From Saprospiraceae bacterium (GTDB lineage: Bacteria; Bacteroidota; Bacteroidia; Chitinophagales; Saprospiraceae), in contig JADLDL010000210.1 of the NCBI GenBank assembly GCA_020846655.1, forward strand, positions 1 through 46,222: a stretch of 46,222 nt of DNA. Reading direction: 5' to 3'. The position numbers and the translations under genes are program-made. This document shows, in pieces, positions 14,247-20,961 of the stretch. The notes under the pieces were generated by a model. It saw nothing but the letters and a program-made list of their open reading frames with translations, did not search any database and was not told the DNA's origin. How positions within the stretch are numbered: the first letter of the stretch is position 1; every line of letters starts with the position of its first letter.

Positions 14247-15032
14247 ATGAAATACCCAGCTTGTCTGTTCCTGCTCCTGTCCGCTCTTTGGCTCTCCAGC
14301 GGCTGTGCCTCGCACGGCCCCGCCTACCTCGGCAACACCGGCATGTACCTCACCAAACCCAACTACAACGGCCAACGCGCCGGCGGTTTTGCCTTCAGCG
14401 GCCGCATCAACCAGGGCTATGTGTATTATGCCGAAGAACAAAACCGGTCTTTTGAATTTTCCGGACACGTCACGCTTCTTTGGAAAAATTTTTACCTGGC
14501 GGGCGGCTTATTCGGCTATGGCGGCAAATACCAGATAGACCGCGATTCCTCTGCCGGCGTATCCTTGAAACCCTATGGCTATGAGGGCTTCGGCCAACGC
14601 TTCGAAATCGGCGCCCGCATCCCCCTGGAGCCCAAACTGGACCTGCTGTTTGGTATTTCAGAAGAAATGTTTGGCCAGCGGGGGGCGTATGAAGATGAAA
14701 CGGAAGGCGACATCGAGGATATTTTCGGCGATACGTTTACCTTGGGTATCGACGGCTTCGGAATCGGATACAACCTGGATTTGCGTTTTACGCCCACGCC
14801 CACCAGCAACATCGGCCTGCGCTACACCTGGGATACTGTAGTGGGCAATGCCGACAACCCACCCCTCGGCTACCTGAACCTCGACTATACCCACCGACTT
14901 ACCCTGCACGGCACCCTCAAACGCCTGACCGCGTTCGCGCAGGTAGGGTTTGCCAATACCGGCCAGGATATGTACAGCGTCGGCCTGAGTTATGCCTTTC
15001 CTTTTTGGCAAAACAGGGCGCTCGCCAACTAA
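14247..15032 (+). CDS. Predicted outer-membrane beta-barrel-like lipoprotein
   Basis: Exported 261-residue protein with a clear lipobox (MKYPACLFLLLSALWLSSGC, Cys20). The mature part alternates aromatic/hydrophobic and polar residues in short strands (GGFAFSGRINQGYVYYAEE, FEFSGHVTLLWKNFYLAGGLFG, LDLRFTPTPTSNIGLRYTWD, LTAFAQVGFANTG) and ends in YSVGLSYAFPFW, which looks like an outer-membrane barrel. An acidic loop (DETEGDIEDIFGD) lies near residues 150-162. I do not recognise a named family; it is not an obvious PorP/SprF protein. It starts 29 bp before the adhesin gene on the same strand and is very probably co-transcribed with it, which suggests a role in export, anchoring or display of that adhesin. 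Confidence 0.72.
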   Translation: MKYPACLFLLLSALWLSSGCASHGPAYLGNTGMYLTKPNYNGQRAGGFAFSGRINQGYVYYAEEQNRSFEFSGHVTLLWKNFYLAGGLFGYGGKYQIDRDSSAGVSLKPYGYEGFGQRFEIGARIPLEPKLDLLFGISEEMFGQRGAYEDETEGDIEDIFGDTFTLGIDGFGIGYNLDLRFTPTPTSNIGLRYTWDTVVGNADNPPLGYLNLDYTHRLTLHGTLKRLTAFAQVGFANTGQDMYSVGLSYAFPFWQNRALAN

Positions 15033-15061: not shown

Positions 15062-18000
15062 ATGAAAGCCATCTTGTACACCCTCGTGGTACTGGCAGCG
15101 CTATGCGCTGTGCCAGCCAAGGCCCAGACCATTCGCTACGTCGACCTTCAGGCCACCGGCGCCAATACCGGCACGTCCTGGGCCAATGCTTTTGTTCAAC
15201 TCCAAGCAGCCATCGATGCCGCCGCACCCGGCGACCAGATTTGGGTGGCCCAAGGCCGCTACCTGCCCACCGCCATTTTCAACGGCACGACTTTTAACCG
15301 GTCTAAAACTTTTTTTGTCAGCAAAAACATATCGGTGTATGGCGGTTTTGCCGGTACGGAAACGGCGCTGTCGCAGCGAAATCCGGATTTGAATCTGACA
15401 ATTTTGAGCGGCGACCTGGACAACAATGACCTGGACCCTGACGGCAACCACATTGCCGAAGATGCCACTCAGGTGATTGGCGACAATGCGCACCATGTGT
15501 TGTGGATCGAAAAAGTAGATTCGACTTGTCTGATCGATGGCTTCACTGTTACGGCCGGTTTGGCCACCGGTTCACAAACCAATGATTCCCAGAATGGCGG
15601 CGGCATCTACAACAATGCCAGCGGCGCCGGCCAACGATCGAGCCCGAAGTTCAGAAACTGTGTTTTTTCGGCCAACCGGTCTTCGTTTTTCGGCGCTATC
15701 CTGTACAACAATGCCCGGCAATACGGCACGGCAAGTCCTCAATTCGAACATTGCATTTTTCGCAAAAACAATGGCATTTTCGGCGGCTTGTACAACGACG
15801 CGACCTTTGGCGGTACAGCCAAGCCCGTTTTGGACCACTGTATTTTTTGGGAAAATACAGCACAGCATGGCGGAGCGGCGATCTGGATTCAATCTACCTT
15901 CTCTGGTGCTAATGTAAGTCCTCTGGTTCGAAATTGTGTTTTTACAAAGAACACCAGCGGCTTCGGAAGTGTCCTTTTTTCCAACACCCTGGACGATAAT
16001 GTCGTCAGCGCCGCTCAGTTTATCAACAGCACCTTTTGTGAAAACGAAAGCAGCTTTGGTGCTGTTTTTCACCTCAACACCAGCAATGGAAGCCTTACGG
16101 AACCCCTCTTCCTGAACTGTCTTTTTGTAGCCAACAAAGCCACCTTTGGAGCGGTCGGCAATATCGGCAACGCCGGAACGACCCGTGTGCAATGGACAAA
16201 TTGCAGTTTTTACGGGAATCAATCCAACCTCGGCAATATCCTGCGCCTGGACAACGGAACCGATACACCTATCCTGGAAACCAGTTTTAGCAACTGCATC
16301 TTGCAGGCCAACACCGGCGGTGCCCTCGGGACAGTCTCCTTGAGTACCGCTTCCAGTGCCGTCTCTACCCGAATGGAATATTCCCTGATCGATGCGGGCG
16401 CCTGCCCACCCGGAATACTTTGTGGTTCGGGTATGCTTTACAATCAAAATCCACTTTTTGTCGACCCCAGCACCCGCAATTTCCGGCTACAAATCAGTTC
16501 TCCAGCAGTAAACAGCGGCAACAACAGCCTACTCCCGCCCGGCATCCTGACAGACCTCGACGACAACGCCCGCTTGCTTGCCGGAACAGTGGACATGGGC
16601 CCATACGAATCAGGTGGGACACCACCCGCAACGCTGGTCGTGCATGTGGGTACTAACAACAACAATTGCCAATCATCCGAAGAGTCATCTGCAACAGCAC
16701 TTGTACAGGGCGGCGTGCCGCCGTATGCCTACCTCTGGAGTACCGGGGCTGCTACCCCATCCATCAATAACCTATCGGCCGGCACATACACCGTCACAGT
16801 GTTTGACAAAAATAATTGCCCCGTAACCGCGACGGCAACCATTTCAAATGCGCCGCCAATCCAGATCCAACCAACGCTACAAAACGCCAGCTGCAGCAAT
16901 TCCAATAATGGTCAATTGAGCCTGAGTGTTTCAGGCGGCACCAGCCCCTACCAGTACCTTTGGAGCACTAATGCCAACACCTCGGGGCTCAGCAACCTGC
17001 CGGCCGGAACCTACACCGTCACCGTCACCGATGCCAAGGGCTGTCAAAGCACAACCAGTGCCACGGTCTCTGCCCCTGCACCGATTCAGATCGGCTTGGT
17101 CTCCACCCCAGTCACTTGTGCCGGCGCCGGCGATGGAACGATCAACACCAACGCCTCGGGCGGCACCAGCCCCTACCAGTACCTTTGGAGCACCAATGCC
17201 AACACCCCCGGGCTCGGCAACCTGCCGGCCGGAACCTACACCGTCACCCTCACCGATGCCAAAGGCTGTCAAGGCACAACCAGTGCTACGGTCTCTGCCC
17301 CTGCACCGATTCAGATCGGCTTGGTCTCCACCCCGGTCAATTGTGCCGGCGCCGGTGATGGAACGATCAACACCAACGCCTCGGGCGGCACCAGCCCCTA
17401 CCAGTACCTTTGGAGCACCAATGCCAGCACCGCCGGGCTCAGCAACCTGCCGGCCGGGACCTACACCGTCACCCTCACCGATGCCAAGGGTTGTCAAAGC
17501 ACAACCAGTGCCACGGTCGTTGCCCCTGCACCGATTCAGATCGGTTTGGTCACCACCCCAGTCACTTGTGCCGGCGCCGGCGATGGAACGATCAACACCA
17601 ACGCCTCGGGCGGCACCAGCCCCTACCAGTACCTTTGGAGCACCAATGCCAACACCGCCGGGCTCAGCAACCTGTCAGCCGGAACTTACATCGTCACCAT
17701 CACCGATACCAAAGGATGCCAAAGCACAACCAGTGCCACGGTCTCTGCCCCTGCACCGATTCAGATCGGCTTGGTCACCGCCCCGGTCACTTGTGCCGGC
17801 GCCGGCGATGGAACAATCAGCAGCAGTGCCTCGGGCGGCACCAGCCCCTATCAGTATCTTTGGAGCACCAATGCCAGCACACCGGGGATCAGCAACCTGT
17901 CGGCCGGCAGCTACACCCTGACGATTACCGATGCGAACAATTGCCAAAGCACCAGCTCGGCGGTCATTGCTAAGTCAACAGATTTAGAACTACAACTAAT

Positions 18001-19207
18001 TACCCTGATCCCTACTGCCTGCACGGGTACAGGAACTATTGAAGCAGCTGCTTCCGGAGGCACCCCACCCTATGTGTACAGTTGGAGCAATGGCGCCTCC
18101 GGACCGATTGTCGACAATCTTCCCGCCGGCCAGTATGAACTGACCCTCACCGATGCCGCAGGCTGTTCTACCAGCGCCTCCGCAACGGTCAACGGAGGCG
18201 CTGCCGACACTGAAGCCCCGCAGCTGATTGCCGGGAATGCAGTTGTGCCGCTCGGGAGCAGCGGTACTGTGCAACTCACCCTGGAATTGCTGGGCGCTAT
18301 CGCTACCGACAATTGTCTGGTCAGCGAGTTCCTGATCGAGCCTTCGCTGTTCGACTGTGCCAAAATCGGAGAGCATTTGGTTACCATAACCGTGGCCGAT
18401 CCCAGCGGCAACCAAACACAAGCCACCATCACGGTCACCATTTCAGACCAAACACCCCCGGTGCTGAGTTGCCCGGCCGATGTGCAACGATGCCCAGCGG
18501 ACAACCCGGTGCAATATGAAGCCCCGGTAGCCACCGACAACTGCCTGCACGTGGGCGGCCCGGGTAGCGGATGGTCGTTGCTTGAAGGCTTGCCTTCGGG
18601 CTCGGTTTTTCCGGTCGGTGAAAGTACGCTGGTTGAATATGCCTATACCGATGGAAGTGGAAATGTCGGAACCTGTAGTTTCACAGTGACCATCAGCCCA
18701 TCGGTACAGGTACAGGTGGATGCCGTATGGCCGGATATTGGCAACCAGAGCAACGGAGCCATTCAGGTTACGCTTTTGGGTGGCATGCCGCCATTTGCCC
18801 TGGCCTGGTACCGCGACGGGCAGTTGGTCAGTACCCAGGAAGACCCCAGCGGTTTGCCAAGCGGATACTACGAACTGCGAATCACTGATGCCAGCGGCTG
18901 TCTGTTCGTTCCGGAAATCGTATTTGTCGACCAACTCGTGCGCACCAGCGAACCGGATTGGGTTGCCGGTATCCAGTTGCAGCCCAACCCCACGCATGGC
19001 TTCACCCGGATAGTATTTCCGGGGTCTTGGGACGGCGCCACAGTGCTGAACATCGTGGATGCTACCGGGCGGCTGGTCGAAACACGATCAGACCTCCAGT
19101 TGCCGTCGGTAGATTTGGATTGCTCCAGGCTGCCAACGGGGGTGTACACACTGGTATTCCAATCGGCCAGCCGGCGTGGCGTTCGGCAACTGGTGGTTCA
19201 GCGTTGA
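15062..19207 (+). CDS. Giant T9SS-secreted adhesin: beta-helix, SprB repeats, HYR, sorting tail
   Basis: Secreted surface protein of 1381 residues. A signal peptide (1 to about 21, ending PAKAQ) is followed by a right-handed beta-helix region (about 25-470) with recurring CxFxxNxxxFG motifs like those of polymorphic outer-membrane proteins. A choice-of-anchor-Q segment (about 470-515) carries SPAVNSG and TVDMGPYE. Then come SprB-type repeats (about 525-1045): a divergent one, five 75-residue copies with SGGTSPYQYLWSTNA and AGTYTVT, then another divergent copy. Two HYR-like modules (about 1048-1218; DQTPPVLSCP, TDGSGN) and one more SprB-like unit precede a T9SS type A sorting domain (about 1304-1381; QPNPTHGF to VQR). 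Known SprB is a mobile gliding adhesin; whether this protein moves is inference. Its stop lies 2 bp from the opposing stop of the GldM-like gene. Confidence 0.92.
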   Translation: MKAILYTLVVLAALCAVPAKAQTIRYVDLQATGANTGTSWANAFVQLQAAIDAAAPGDQIWVAQGRYLPTAIFNGTTFNRSKTFFVSKNISVYGGFAGTETALSQRNPDLNLTILSGDLDNNDLDPDGNHIAEDATQVIGDNAHHVLWIEKVDSTCLIDGFTVTAGLATGSQTNDSQNGGGIYNNASGAGQRSSPKFRNCVFSANRSSFFGAILYNNARQYGTASPQFEHCIFRKNNGIFGGLYNDATFGGTAKPVLDHCIFWENTAQHGGAAIWIQSTFSGANVSPLVRNCVFTKNTSGFGSVLFSNTLDDNVVSAAQFINSTFCENESSFGAVFHLNTSNGSLTEPLFLNCLFVANKATFGAVGNIGNAGTTRVQWTNCSFYGNQSNLGNILRLDNGTDTPILETSFSNCILQANTGGALGTVSLSTASSAVSTRMEYSLIDAGACPPGILCGSGMLYNQNPLFVDPSTRNFRLQISSPAVNSGNNSLLPPGILTDLDDNARLLAGTVDMGPYESGGTPPATLVVHVGTNNNNCQSSEESSATALVQGGVPPYAYLWSTGAATPSINNLSAGTYTVTVFDKNNCPVTATATISNAPPIQIQPTLQNASCSNSNNGQLSLSVSGGTSPYQYLWSTNANTSGLSNLPAGTYTVTVTDAKGCQSTTSATVSAPAPIQIGLVSTPVTCAGAGDGTINTNASGGTSPYQYLWSTNANTPGLGNLPAGTYTVTLTDAKGCQGTTSATVSAPAPIQIGLVSTPVNCAGAGDGTINTNASGGTSPYQYLWSTNASTAGLSNLPAGTYTVTLTDAKGCQSTTSATVVAPAPIQIGLVTTPVTCAGAGDGTINTNASGGTSPYQYLWSTNANTAGLSNLSAGTYIVTITDTKGCQSTTSATVSAPAPIQIGLVTAPVTCAGAGDGTISSSASGGTSPYQYLWSTNASTPGISNLSAGSYTLTITDANNCQSTSSAVIAKSTDLELQLITLIPTACTGTGTIEAAASGGTPPYVYSWSNGASGPIVDNLPAGQYELTLTDAAGCSTSASATVNGGAADTEAPQLIAGNAVVPLGSSGTVQLTLELLGAIATDNCLVSEFLIEPSLFDCAKIGEHLVTITVADPSGNQTQATITVTISDQTPPVLSCPADVQRCPADNPVQYEAPVATDNCLHVGGPGSGWSLLEGLPSGSVFPVGESTLVEYAYTDGSGNVGTCSFTVTISPSVQVQVDAVWPDIGNQSNGAIQVTLLGGMPPFALAWYRDGQLVSTQEDPSGLPSGYYELRITDASGCLFVPEIVFVDQLVRTSEPDWVAGIQLQPNPTHGFTRIVFPGSWDGATVLNIVDATGRLVETRSDLQLPSVDLDCSRLPTGVYTLVFQSASRRGVRQLVVQR
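16856..17980 (+). repeat. Five tandem 225-bp repeats inside the adhesin gene
   Basis: Units start at 16856, 17081, 17306, 17531 and 17756, an exact 225-bp (75-codon) period anchored on the phrase CCGATTCAGATCGG and its variant in unit 1. Units 2, 3 and 4 differ at only about ten positions per pair by eye; units 1 and 5 are more diverged. The repeats are nearly identical in DNA, not only in protein, which points to recent duplication or gene conversion. The number of copies can change without breaking the frame. Confidence 0.93.
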
Positions 19208-19209
19208 CT

Positions 19210-19860
19210 TTATTTGATCAGGATGACATAATTGTTGATCGGGCGGTTAGCGGTATCTCCGGCGCAGTTGGCTTCCAGATTGGAAAACAGGAAAATATCG
19301 CCGGCCACGGCTTGCGCCACCAGTTTGCGCGCAGGTTCTTCGTAACGGGCGCCCAGGTTGGGTACGCTGCTGCGGGCGCCCGTAGCGTCGATCCGGGTGA
19401 TGGTGTATTGTACGGTACGGCAATGCCCGTCGACTTCCAGGCCATCCTGCATCATACCCAAACCCCTGGTTTCTTTAAATTCTGCCGCCGTCAGGCTGGT
19501 GTTTTTGCGGAGCGACGTGCCGTTGAGCGAGGGTAGCGGGTCGGGCACCCGTTTGGCCACCAGGGCAAATTGCCCGATTACATTGCCGCCCTGCGTCACC
19601 ACGATGGCAACCTGCCCGATTTGATTTACGCGGGCGACAAAATGGTTGTCTTGTTCGCGCCGGATTGTCCCTTCCGAAATAGCCACTTGCACCTGGTCCC
19701 AGTTGGCGACCGGCAGGTGCAGGGTCACCGGATTGTCGATACCCAGGTAGAGCACATTGGGTCGGTCCATTTGGAGCAGCGACACCGGTGCTGTTTGTGT
19801 GTGCCCGGAGCAGAAAGCGGCAAGCAGTACGACGATCGTCAAGAAGTATTTACCCCTCAT
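19210..19860 (-). CDS. Stand-alone GldM D3-D4-like secreted protein
   Basis: Exported 216-residue protein with a signal peptide (1 to about 22) and no other membrane helix. Residues 33-110 resemble the third domain of GldM/PorM: NVLYLGIDNPV near the start and a closing KRVPDPLP. Residues 115-216 resemble the GldM C-terminal domain: LTAAEFKETRG, a central cysteine-containing strand HCRTVQYTITRID, and a final strand NYVILIK. Full GldM is a roughly 500-residue motor protein with an inner-membrane helix and four periplasmic domains that reach toward the GldK/GldN ring. The helix and D1-D2 are absent here, so it cannot be the motor. It faces the T9SS adhesin tail to tail (2 bp) and the CARDB protein head to head (27 bp). 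Homology is by motif recognition; function is inference. Confidence 0.82.
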   Translation of the reverse strand: MRGKYFLTIVVLLAAFCSGHTQTAPVSLLQMDRPNVLYLGIDNPVTLHLPVANWDQVQVAISEGTIRREQDNHFVARVNQIGQVAIVVTQGGNVIGQFALVAKRVPDPLPSLNGTSLRKNTSLTAAEFKETRGLGMMQDGLEVDGHCRTVQYTITRIDATGARSSVPNLGARYEEPARKLVAQAVAGDIFLFSNLEANCAGDTANRPINNYVILIK

Positions 19861-19887
19861 GTTGTATTCAATTTTTTAAACAAAATA

Positions 19888-20961
19888 ATGTCCAGTATGA
19901 AAATCAATTTTGCCATCCGACTTTGTTTTTTCGGCGCTGCTTTTTTGCTCCTGACCGCAGAGCGCTGCGTGGAAATTACCGAAATCAATACCCCTAATTT
20001 TGTTGCGCCGGGCACCCCGTTTCAGGTTAAAACACGCCTGAAACATTTGGCAGACGACAATAACGAATTTAACCTGACTTATTATTTGTCGTACGACAGA
20101 ATGTGGAACCCGGAAGACATTCCCATCGGCAGCAAAACCCTGGCCAATTTCCCCATCAACTCAGCCCGCCAGGTCGATCAGACGCTTCTGGTGCCCGCCA
20201 ACACCTTTTCCGGTAAATATTACCTGATCGCAAAGGCGCTGGACGGCGAAATGTACCGCCCGATCCAGGTCAATGGCCCGGTCAACATGGGCGCCGACCT
20301 GGTGCCTGCCGAGCTCATGAGCTATGGCGGAACACAGGCCGGCGAAACCTTTTCGTTTGCGTTCACCCTCTTCAACCGGGGTATGCTAAGCGCTGAGCAC
20401 TGTGTGGTGCGGGCCTATTTGTCGTCAGACGCCACCGTGGACGCCACCGACCGCCTGATGTATACCGTGCCCATTAGCAGCCCGATGGGCGCCAATAGCC
20501 TGCGCGAATTCGTGGGGCTCCAATTTGCCCTGCCCGGTGATTTGCCCAAACGCGATTATTATTTCATTCTTCAGGCAGATGCCAACAATGCAGTATCCGA
20601 ATCCTCCGAAACCAACAACCAGGTGTCCAAATTGCAGAACCTGGGTACCGAACAGGCAATGGCGGAAGCGGAAGACCGAGCAGCCGGTATAGATCCCGAA
20701 CCGGCAGCCGCAACACTGGCCCTGAGCCCCAACCCGACATTTGATTTTCTCCACGTCGCCTACCGCCTGGAAACCGCTTCGCCTGTACAACTGGAGGTAG
20801 TGGATGCCTCCGGAAAAACGGTATTTTCCAGCAGCGAACGGATGCTTGACGCTGGTGAATACACCCAGCAGATCGAACTGAGCAGATGGCCCGGTGGGCT
20901 TTACCTCCTTCGCATGCGCTGTGCCGGGCAGGAAATGGTTCGGAAAATAGTAAAACAATAG
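19888..20961 (+). CDS. CARDB-domain secreted protein with T9SS sorting tail
   Basis: Secreted 357-residue protein. After a signal peptide (1 to about 25) there are two immunoglobulin-like CARDB-type modules, about 30-130 and 135-255; the second ends in the family phrase NAVSESSETNNQV. A linker leads to a T9SS type A sorting domain (about 280-357; LSPNPTFDF, GLYLLRM, ending KIVKQ). CARDB modules are extracellular adhesion folds. Start chosen at 19888 within an AT-rich leader; 19897 is an alternative only three codons in. The start is 27 bp from the divergent start of the GldM-like gene, so at least one promoter must lie inside the other gene. A strong terminator follows at 20983. Domain calls are good; the ligand is unknown. 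Confidence 0.88.
   Translation: MSSMKINFAIRLCFFGAAFLLLTAERCVEITEINTPNFVAPGTPFQVKTRLKHLADDNNEFNLTYYLSYDRMWNPEDIPIGSKTLANFPINSARQVDQTLLVPANTFSGKYYLIAKALDGEMYRPIQVNGPVNMGADLVPAELMSYGGTQAGETFSFAFTLFNRGMLSAEHCVVRAYLSSDATVDATDRLMYTVPISSPMGANSLREFVGLQFALPGDLPKRDYYFILQADANNAVSESSETNNQVSKLQNLGTEQAMAEAEDRAAGIDPEPAAATLALSPNPTFDFLHVAYRLETASPVQLEVVDASGKTVFSSSERMLDAGEYTQQIELSRWPGGLYLLRMRCAGQEMVRKIVKQ

Follow-up and report, generated by a model that had tools for sequence, protein, structure and literature searches.

The 46,222-nucleotide stretch of DNA from a Saprospiraceae bacterium that was analysed here (the window) carries a small gene between two genes for cargo of the type IX secretion system (T9SS), and its product resembles the tip of the T9SS protein GldM (PorM) but has no motor. 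The question raised by this locus is what such a free tip may do: act on the T9SS ring, serve its two neighbours, work as a module recruited for something else, or represent no more than the remnant of a gldM gene.

A GldM tip without its motor

The gene (19210..19860, minus strand) encodes a protein of 216 residues, in which a signal peptide region (residues 1-22, 19795..19860, recognized by eye; pLDDT of the model below 50) is followed by the third domain of GldM (D3, residues 33-98, 19567..19764) and a diverged fourth domain (D4, residues 106-206, 19243..19545), all on the minus strand. D3 reaches 37.8 bits with PF21602 (cut-off 25.2), D4 is present by domain match and alignments although its score stays under the Pfam cut-off, and the predicted structure has the D3 and D4 fold of PorM (TIGR03517; PDB 6ey6, 7cmg, 6ey4). 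Domain matches, the signal peptide seen by eye and the predicted fold thus bear out the free exported D3-D4 protein of the initial annotation. The NVLYxGxDNP motif and the PDP linker of PorM/GldM are also found in the protein, which shares 28% identity with the genome's own GldM and scores 45.1 bits with TIGR03517, below the NCBIfam equivalog cut-off of 180 bits; the canonical GldM of the genome scores 282 bits. Unlike in PorM/GldM, the motor helix, D1 and D2 are absent from the reading frame, and the signal peptide stands at its start instead. A frameshifted longer gldM was considered and ruled out, as a tblastn search of the window with GldM residues 1-300 revealed no trace of D1-D2 (best E 1.9). 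Up to E 1, the protein also has no match to the T9SS C-terminal sorting domain (PF18962) or to the M56 protease domain (PF05569).

For PorM, PMC5790014 reports that D4 by itself is enough for PorN binding in a two-hybrid assay and that periplasmic PorM has an affinity of about 1 uM for PorN, and PMC12421860 describes a cross-link of the D4-PorN contact between PorM S460 and PorN A241. Conservation of the PorN-docking hairpin was dropped as evidence, as the position of PorM S460, which by counting in the alignment maps near residue 157 of the window protein, lies in a variable hairpin and is therefore uninformative either way. In the window D4, eight positions are changed where at least 48 of 49 GldM rows are identical, most of the FDFDA stretch included, whereas the cysteine pair as well as G-D and R near the C-terminus are retained; the eight other free copies in the D4 alignment are also variable at several of these positions. 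In view of the eight alterations, a competition with GldM for the ring, which had been suggested along with a capping of the ring as hypothetical roles, is possible but does not appear to be favoured. The two cysteines (Cys147 and Cys199), shared with Saprospiraceae GldM, are invariant across a 62-row alignment with canonical GldM, albeit not present in every free copy, and as they are invariant also in the canonical rows, an internal bond is the more likely role of this pair. Disulfide links of GldK are covered in PMC12635249.

The family of free copies and its ancestry

The window protein is a motor-free GldM tip that belongs to a larger, fast-evolving family. In its own genome, five proteins exceed the D3 cut-off, and a comparison with the window protein gives the same set: the canonical GldM on contig C201, a fusion of an M56 protease with D3-D4 on C308, and the free copies in the window, on C253 and on C10. 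The canonical gldM is part of a gldK-L-M-N cluster (L018), all four genes of which exceed their NCBIfam cut-offs. Two long frames of 866 and 2159 residues, on C62 and C331 (L022 and L023), also contain weak matches to D3 (E 0.10 and 0.73).

Profiles run against 60 related genomes gave 26 loci with free copies, some of them in tandem, in 15 of 37 same-genus genomes, the window's own included. Free copies were assigned by frame length and inspection of the loci, and the count leaves out short partial matches in seven genomes (G001, G003, G014, G023, G026, G027 and G031). Rows left out of the analysis were canonical gldM genes that were judged by neighbours and position to be cut by contig ends (L060, L062, L116, L117 and the first gene of L155), two loci with the same genes as L058 and L057 (L088 and L091), and the second copy of L165, an inverted duplicate that is perhaps an assembly artefact; L066 at a contig edge was kept for the tree but not for adjacency counts, and the gene called in L169 lacks the beginning of D3 and is perhaps truncated. 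Like the window protein, the free proteins of the relatives (L020, L021, L053, L054, L067, L068, L085 and others) consist of an export signal, as judged by eye, and D3-D4 only; their identity to the window protein is 18 to 40%, and unlike it, some have lipoprotein-like signals (by eye) and some are paired with a two-repeat GldN-like gene. Phylum-wide, 93 of 395 genomes have a D3 match, and besides the window's genome five in this sample have frames of free-copy length, one of which (L187) by eye stops after D3 and has a different N-terminal part, and one (L186) apparently has two D3-D4 units. The named genomes with free copies are Saprospiraceae assemblies and Neolewinella agarilytica DSM 24740 (L085). 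For the copies in six genomes of other genera, no neighbour was matched by the T9SS profiles used.

Some related architectures stand beside this census. The exported protein of L186 (8679-9959, 426 residues) looks like two D3-D4 units, with one Pfam stretch per domain in its first half. Proteins of 465 and 453 residues in L222 (1672-3069) and L223 (1291-2652) match the D3-D4 profile and have neither an M56 match nor an obvious motor helix, and Pfam assigns GldM D2 and D4 to the former. At L089, L094, L122, L127 and L129, a full-length gldM adjoins gldN with no gldL among the called neighbours, perhaps as second gldM-gldN pairs.

In a tree built from 81 D3-D4 rows, with canonical GldM subsampled, one group (88/96, unstarred) contains all 43 GldM rows; 32 of 33 free copies, the window protein among them, and 4 of 4 M56 fusions fall outside it. 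The window row, on a long branch of 1.67, clusters with L053 and L054 (90/56, unstarred). The sole free copy within the GldM group is that of L158 (9734-10546), a protein of 270 residues encoded directly behind gldK-gldL-gldM-gldN and freshly copied from the GldM of that same cluster (100/99). Three pairs of free copies from relatives, to which the window gene itself does not belong, gave Ka/Ks values of 0.38, 0.10 and 0.31, with Ks of the second saturated at 2.0 and a fourth pair dropped as misframed; the topA-like gene of one such genome pair has 0.02. The free copies are thus constrained but fast-evolving.

These data also bear on the view that the gene is what remains of a gldM copy in decay, for which the long branch and the low-scoring D4 could be quoted, as could L158, which shows in another species that gldM tips get copied. 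The intact frame with its export signal, the missing trace of D1-D2, the conserved cysteines, the selection on the relatives and the position of nearly all free copies outside the GldM group make such a decay very improbable, and in this the earlier assessment of the gene is followed.

The architecture had been regarded as not described before, which holds for the literature searched, as neither a stand-alone D3-D4 protein nor the two-repeat GldN-like family nor the M56 fusion was found described there, most subscription papers being outside its scope; PMC5790014 does mention in one sentence "other extra orthologues of porM" in F. johnsoniae, and the parts seen of PMC5445135, PMC6387759 and PMC8986121 contain nothing that bears on free copies.

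Neighbouring genes and the link to the T9SS

Whereas gldM normally lies beside gldL and gldN, the window gene adjoins two cargo genes, as judged by domain matches, and no T9SS machinery gene; the gldK-L-M-N cluster is on another contig. The convergent neighbour (15062..19207, plus strand) encodes a cargo of 1381 residues with SprB repeats, HYR domains and a C-terminal sorting domain, and its end is two bases apart from that of the D3-D4 gene. The divergent neighbour (19888..20961, plus strand) encodes a cargo with CARDB and a C-terminal sorting domain; its putative start is the ATG at 19888, with another ATG at 19897, and with the former the start codons are separated by a gap of 27 bp (19861..19887). 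Such close divergent starts may permit shared control, but being convergent with one cargo gene and divergent from the other, the gene is in no operon with either. Just upstream of the gene with the SprB repeats, an exported protein of 261 residues with no Pfam match is encoded (14247-15032).

This position suggests that the protein could be an accessory of the two cargo proteins, for example a periplasmic chaperone or anchor, and the relatives at first seem to agree, as cargo neighbours, scored with a sorting-domain profile from 20 independent sequences, are found at 8 of 26 free-copy loci versus 7 of 166 background genes (Fisher 1.3e-4). A copy beside a mutS-like gene (assigned by eye) faces a cargo gene in three genomes (L056, L059 and L063), and the copy of L065 faces a cargo of the same type. 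However, these four of the eight loci represent one orthologous locus type, and if orthologous loci are counted once, 5 of 23 remain, which is significant against the measured background (Fisher 0.008) but not at a cargo-neighbour rate of 13% (binomial 0.17), a true rate with which the 332 candidate cargo genes of the window's genome, at least 116 of them cargo genes, would be compatible. In addition, the ORFs were called by a longest-ORF heuristic that yields some false ORFs, and the background is diluted by them, so that the enrichment is overstated. The nearest relatives of the window gene (L053 and L054) adjoin a GH2 gene and a gene judged by eye to be topA-like, but no cargo, L224, L225 and L226 also have no cargo neighbour, and the same is true for 18 of 26 loci in total, 14 of which have no adjacent GldN-like gene either. 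A role as an accessory of the neighbouring cargo is therefore unlikely, and the dedicated adaptor that had been envisaged for it is not supported, in view of the different neighbours of the nearest relatives and the lack of an operon.

A better case for the T9SS comes from other neighbours. Two-repeat GldN-like proteins, which are exported, have about 340 to 380 residues and match PF19841 weakly, occur in 23 of 37 same-genus genomes, and at 5 of 26 loci a free copy lies head to head with such a gene within 250 bp (the GldN-like genes L021:4990-6111, L067:8858-9988 and L068:8010-9116, as well as those of L165 and L169; further such genes lie elsewhere). In the window's own genome, GldN-like proteins are encoded on contigs C10 and C123. 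The binomial probability of this is 3.6e-11, assuming two such genes in 4500 and independent loci. The D3-D4 proteins of the five loci share a starred clade (100/98) that comprises nine proteins encoded at seven loci and does not include the window protein, and this single clade implies that the pairings may go back to one event; the GldN-like partners are 27 to 43% identical to that of L021. Among the 37 same-genus genomes, 12 have both free tips and two-repeat GldN-like genes, 3 only the tips, 11 only the GldN-like genes and 11 neither, a co-occurrence that is not significant (Fisher p 0.09). The two-repeat proteins lack the C-terminal segment of GldN to which PorN A241 maps by counting in the alignment, so that the known PorM-PorN contact cannot simply be transferred to them, and the pairing, if physical, must use another surface.

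Orthologous free copies of two related genomes (L224:4692-5354 and L225:5461-6123) are convergent with porQ (NF033711, E 3.4e-104 and 4.7e-104), with ends within 6 bp, and the free copy of L061 adjoins an FGE-domain gene whose resemblance to GldK is weak. Of the T9SS link that had been assumed, the part that stands is the position of some relatives beside GldN-like, porQ, FGE-domain and gldKLMN genes, while the adjacency to cargo loses significance once collapsed if the true rate is near 13%. For the family as a whole, the link to T9SS genes is patchy but non-random.

Protease fusions and possible roles of the tip

The D3-D4 unit also occurs on membrane proteases. In the window's genome, L019:7498-9291 (C308) encodes a BlaR1-type M56 protease of 597 residues that is fused to D3-D4 and lies directly behind a BlaI-type gene. 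It shares the two domains with the window protein and lies with the free copies outside the GldM group, but differs from it by the membrane protease domain and the adjacent repressor. With 12 of 16 further long-frame loci (L209-L219 and L221), this fusion is found in 13 of 37 same-genus genomes, M56 being assigned by Pfam in L019 and L209 and by a custom profile in the others, and a BlaI-type gene is directly upstream of 9 of the 13 (8 calls by custom profile, L209 also having Pfam PF03965, and L019 by NCBIfam matches below cut-offs). In L115, a free copy follows 23 bp behind a fusion gene.

The fusions and the L115 arrangement could mean that D3-D4, once taken over from GldM, has become a general sensor or ligand-binding module of the periplasm and has lost its function at the T9SS ring; the free copies would then bind a different ligand, perhaps in common with the BlaR1-type sensors that bear this module. 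The changed GldM-specific residues of the window D4 and the different neighbours of the copies in other genera would agree with this, but the free copies are repeatedly linked to GldN-like, porQ and gldKLMN genes, and as the fusion may itself monitor the T9SS, being possibly a sensor of this secretion system, the recruitment of the module away from the ring is somewhat less likely than an action on it.

The most likely single reading, still a tentative one, is that the window protein, as a periplasmic version of the GldM/PorM tip that arose as a paralogue and lost the motor, exerts its effect either on the T9SS ring itself or on GldN-like paralogues, and the gldK-L-M-N cluster of its own genome would offer a binding partner for this. 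The protein would be exported by Sec, D3 would form a short Ig-like stalk and D4 the docking head, and D4 would dock on GldN-type subunits without passing on torque, in which case the protein would work in trans, as an adaptor or as a regulator of occupancy.

Free tips, two-repeat GldN-like proteins and tip-bearing BlaR1-type proteases might even constitute an additional layer on the type IX ring that works without motors, although this is improbable; if it existed, the two-repeat proteins could provide the tips with a binding site outside the ring, and the layer would report or set the number of motor-engaged ring sites and switch genes via BlaI. For studies of the engagement between PorLM motor and PorKN ring and of its regulation, the natural motor-free tips, some of them paired with GldN-like proteins, are ready reagents, as such a tip may bind but cannot turn. 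As the same tip also occurs on a BlaR1-type protease encoded next to a BlaI-type repressor, it may be the means by which some bacteria sense the condition of their secretion system.
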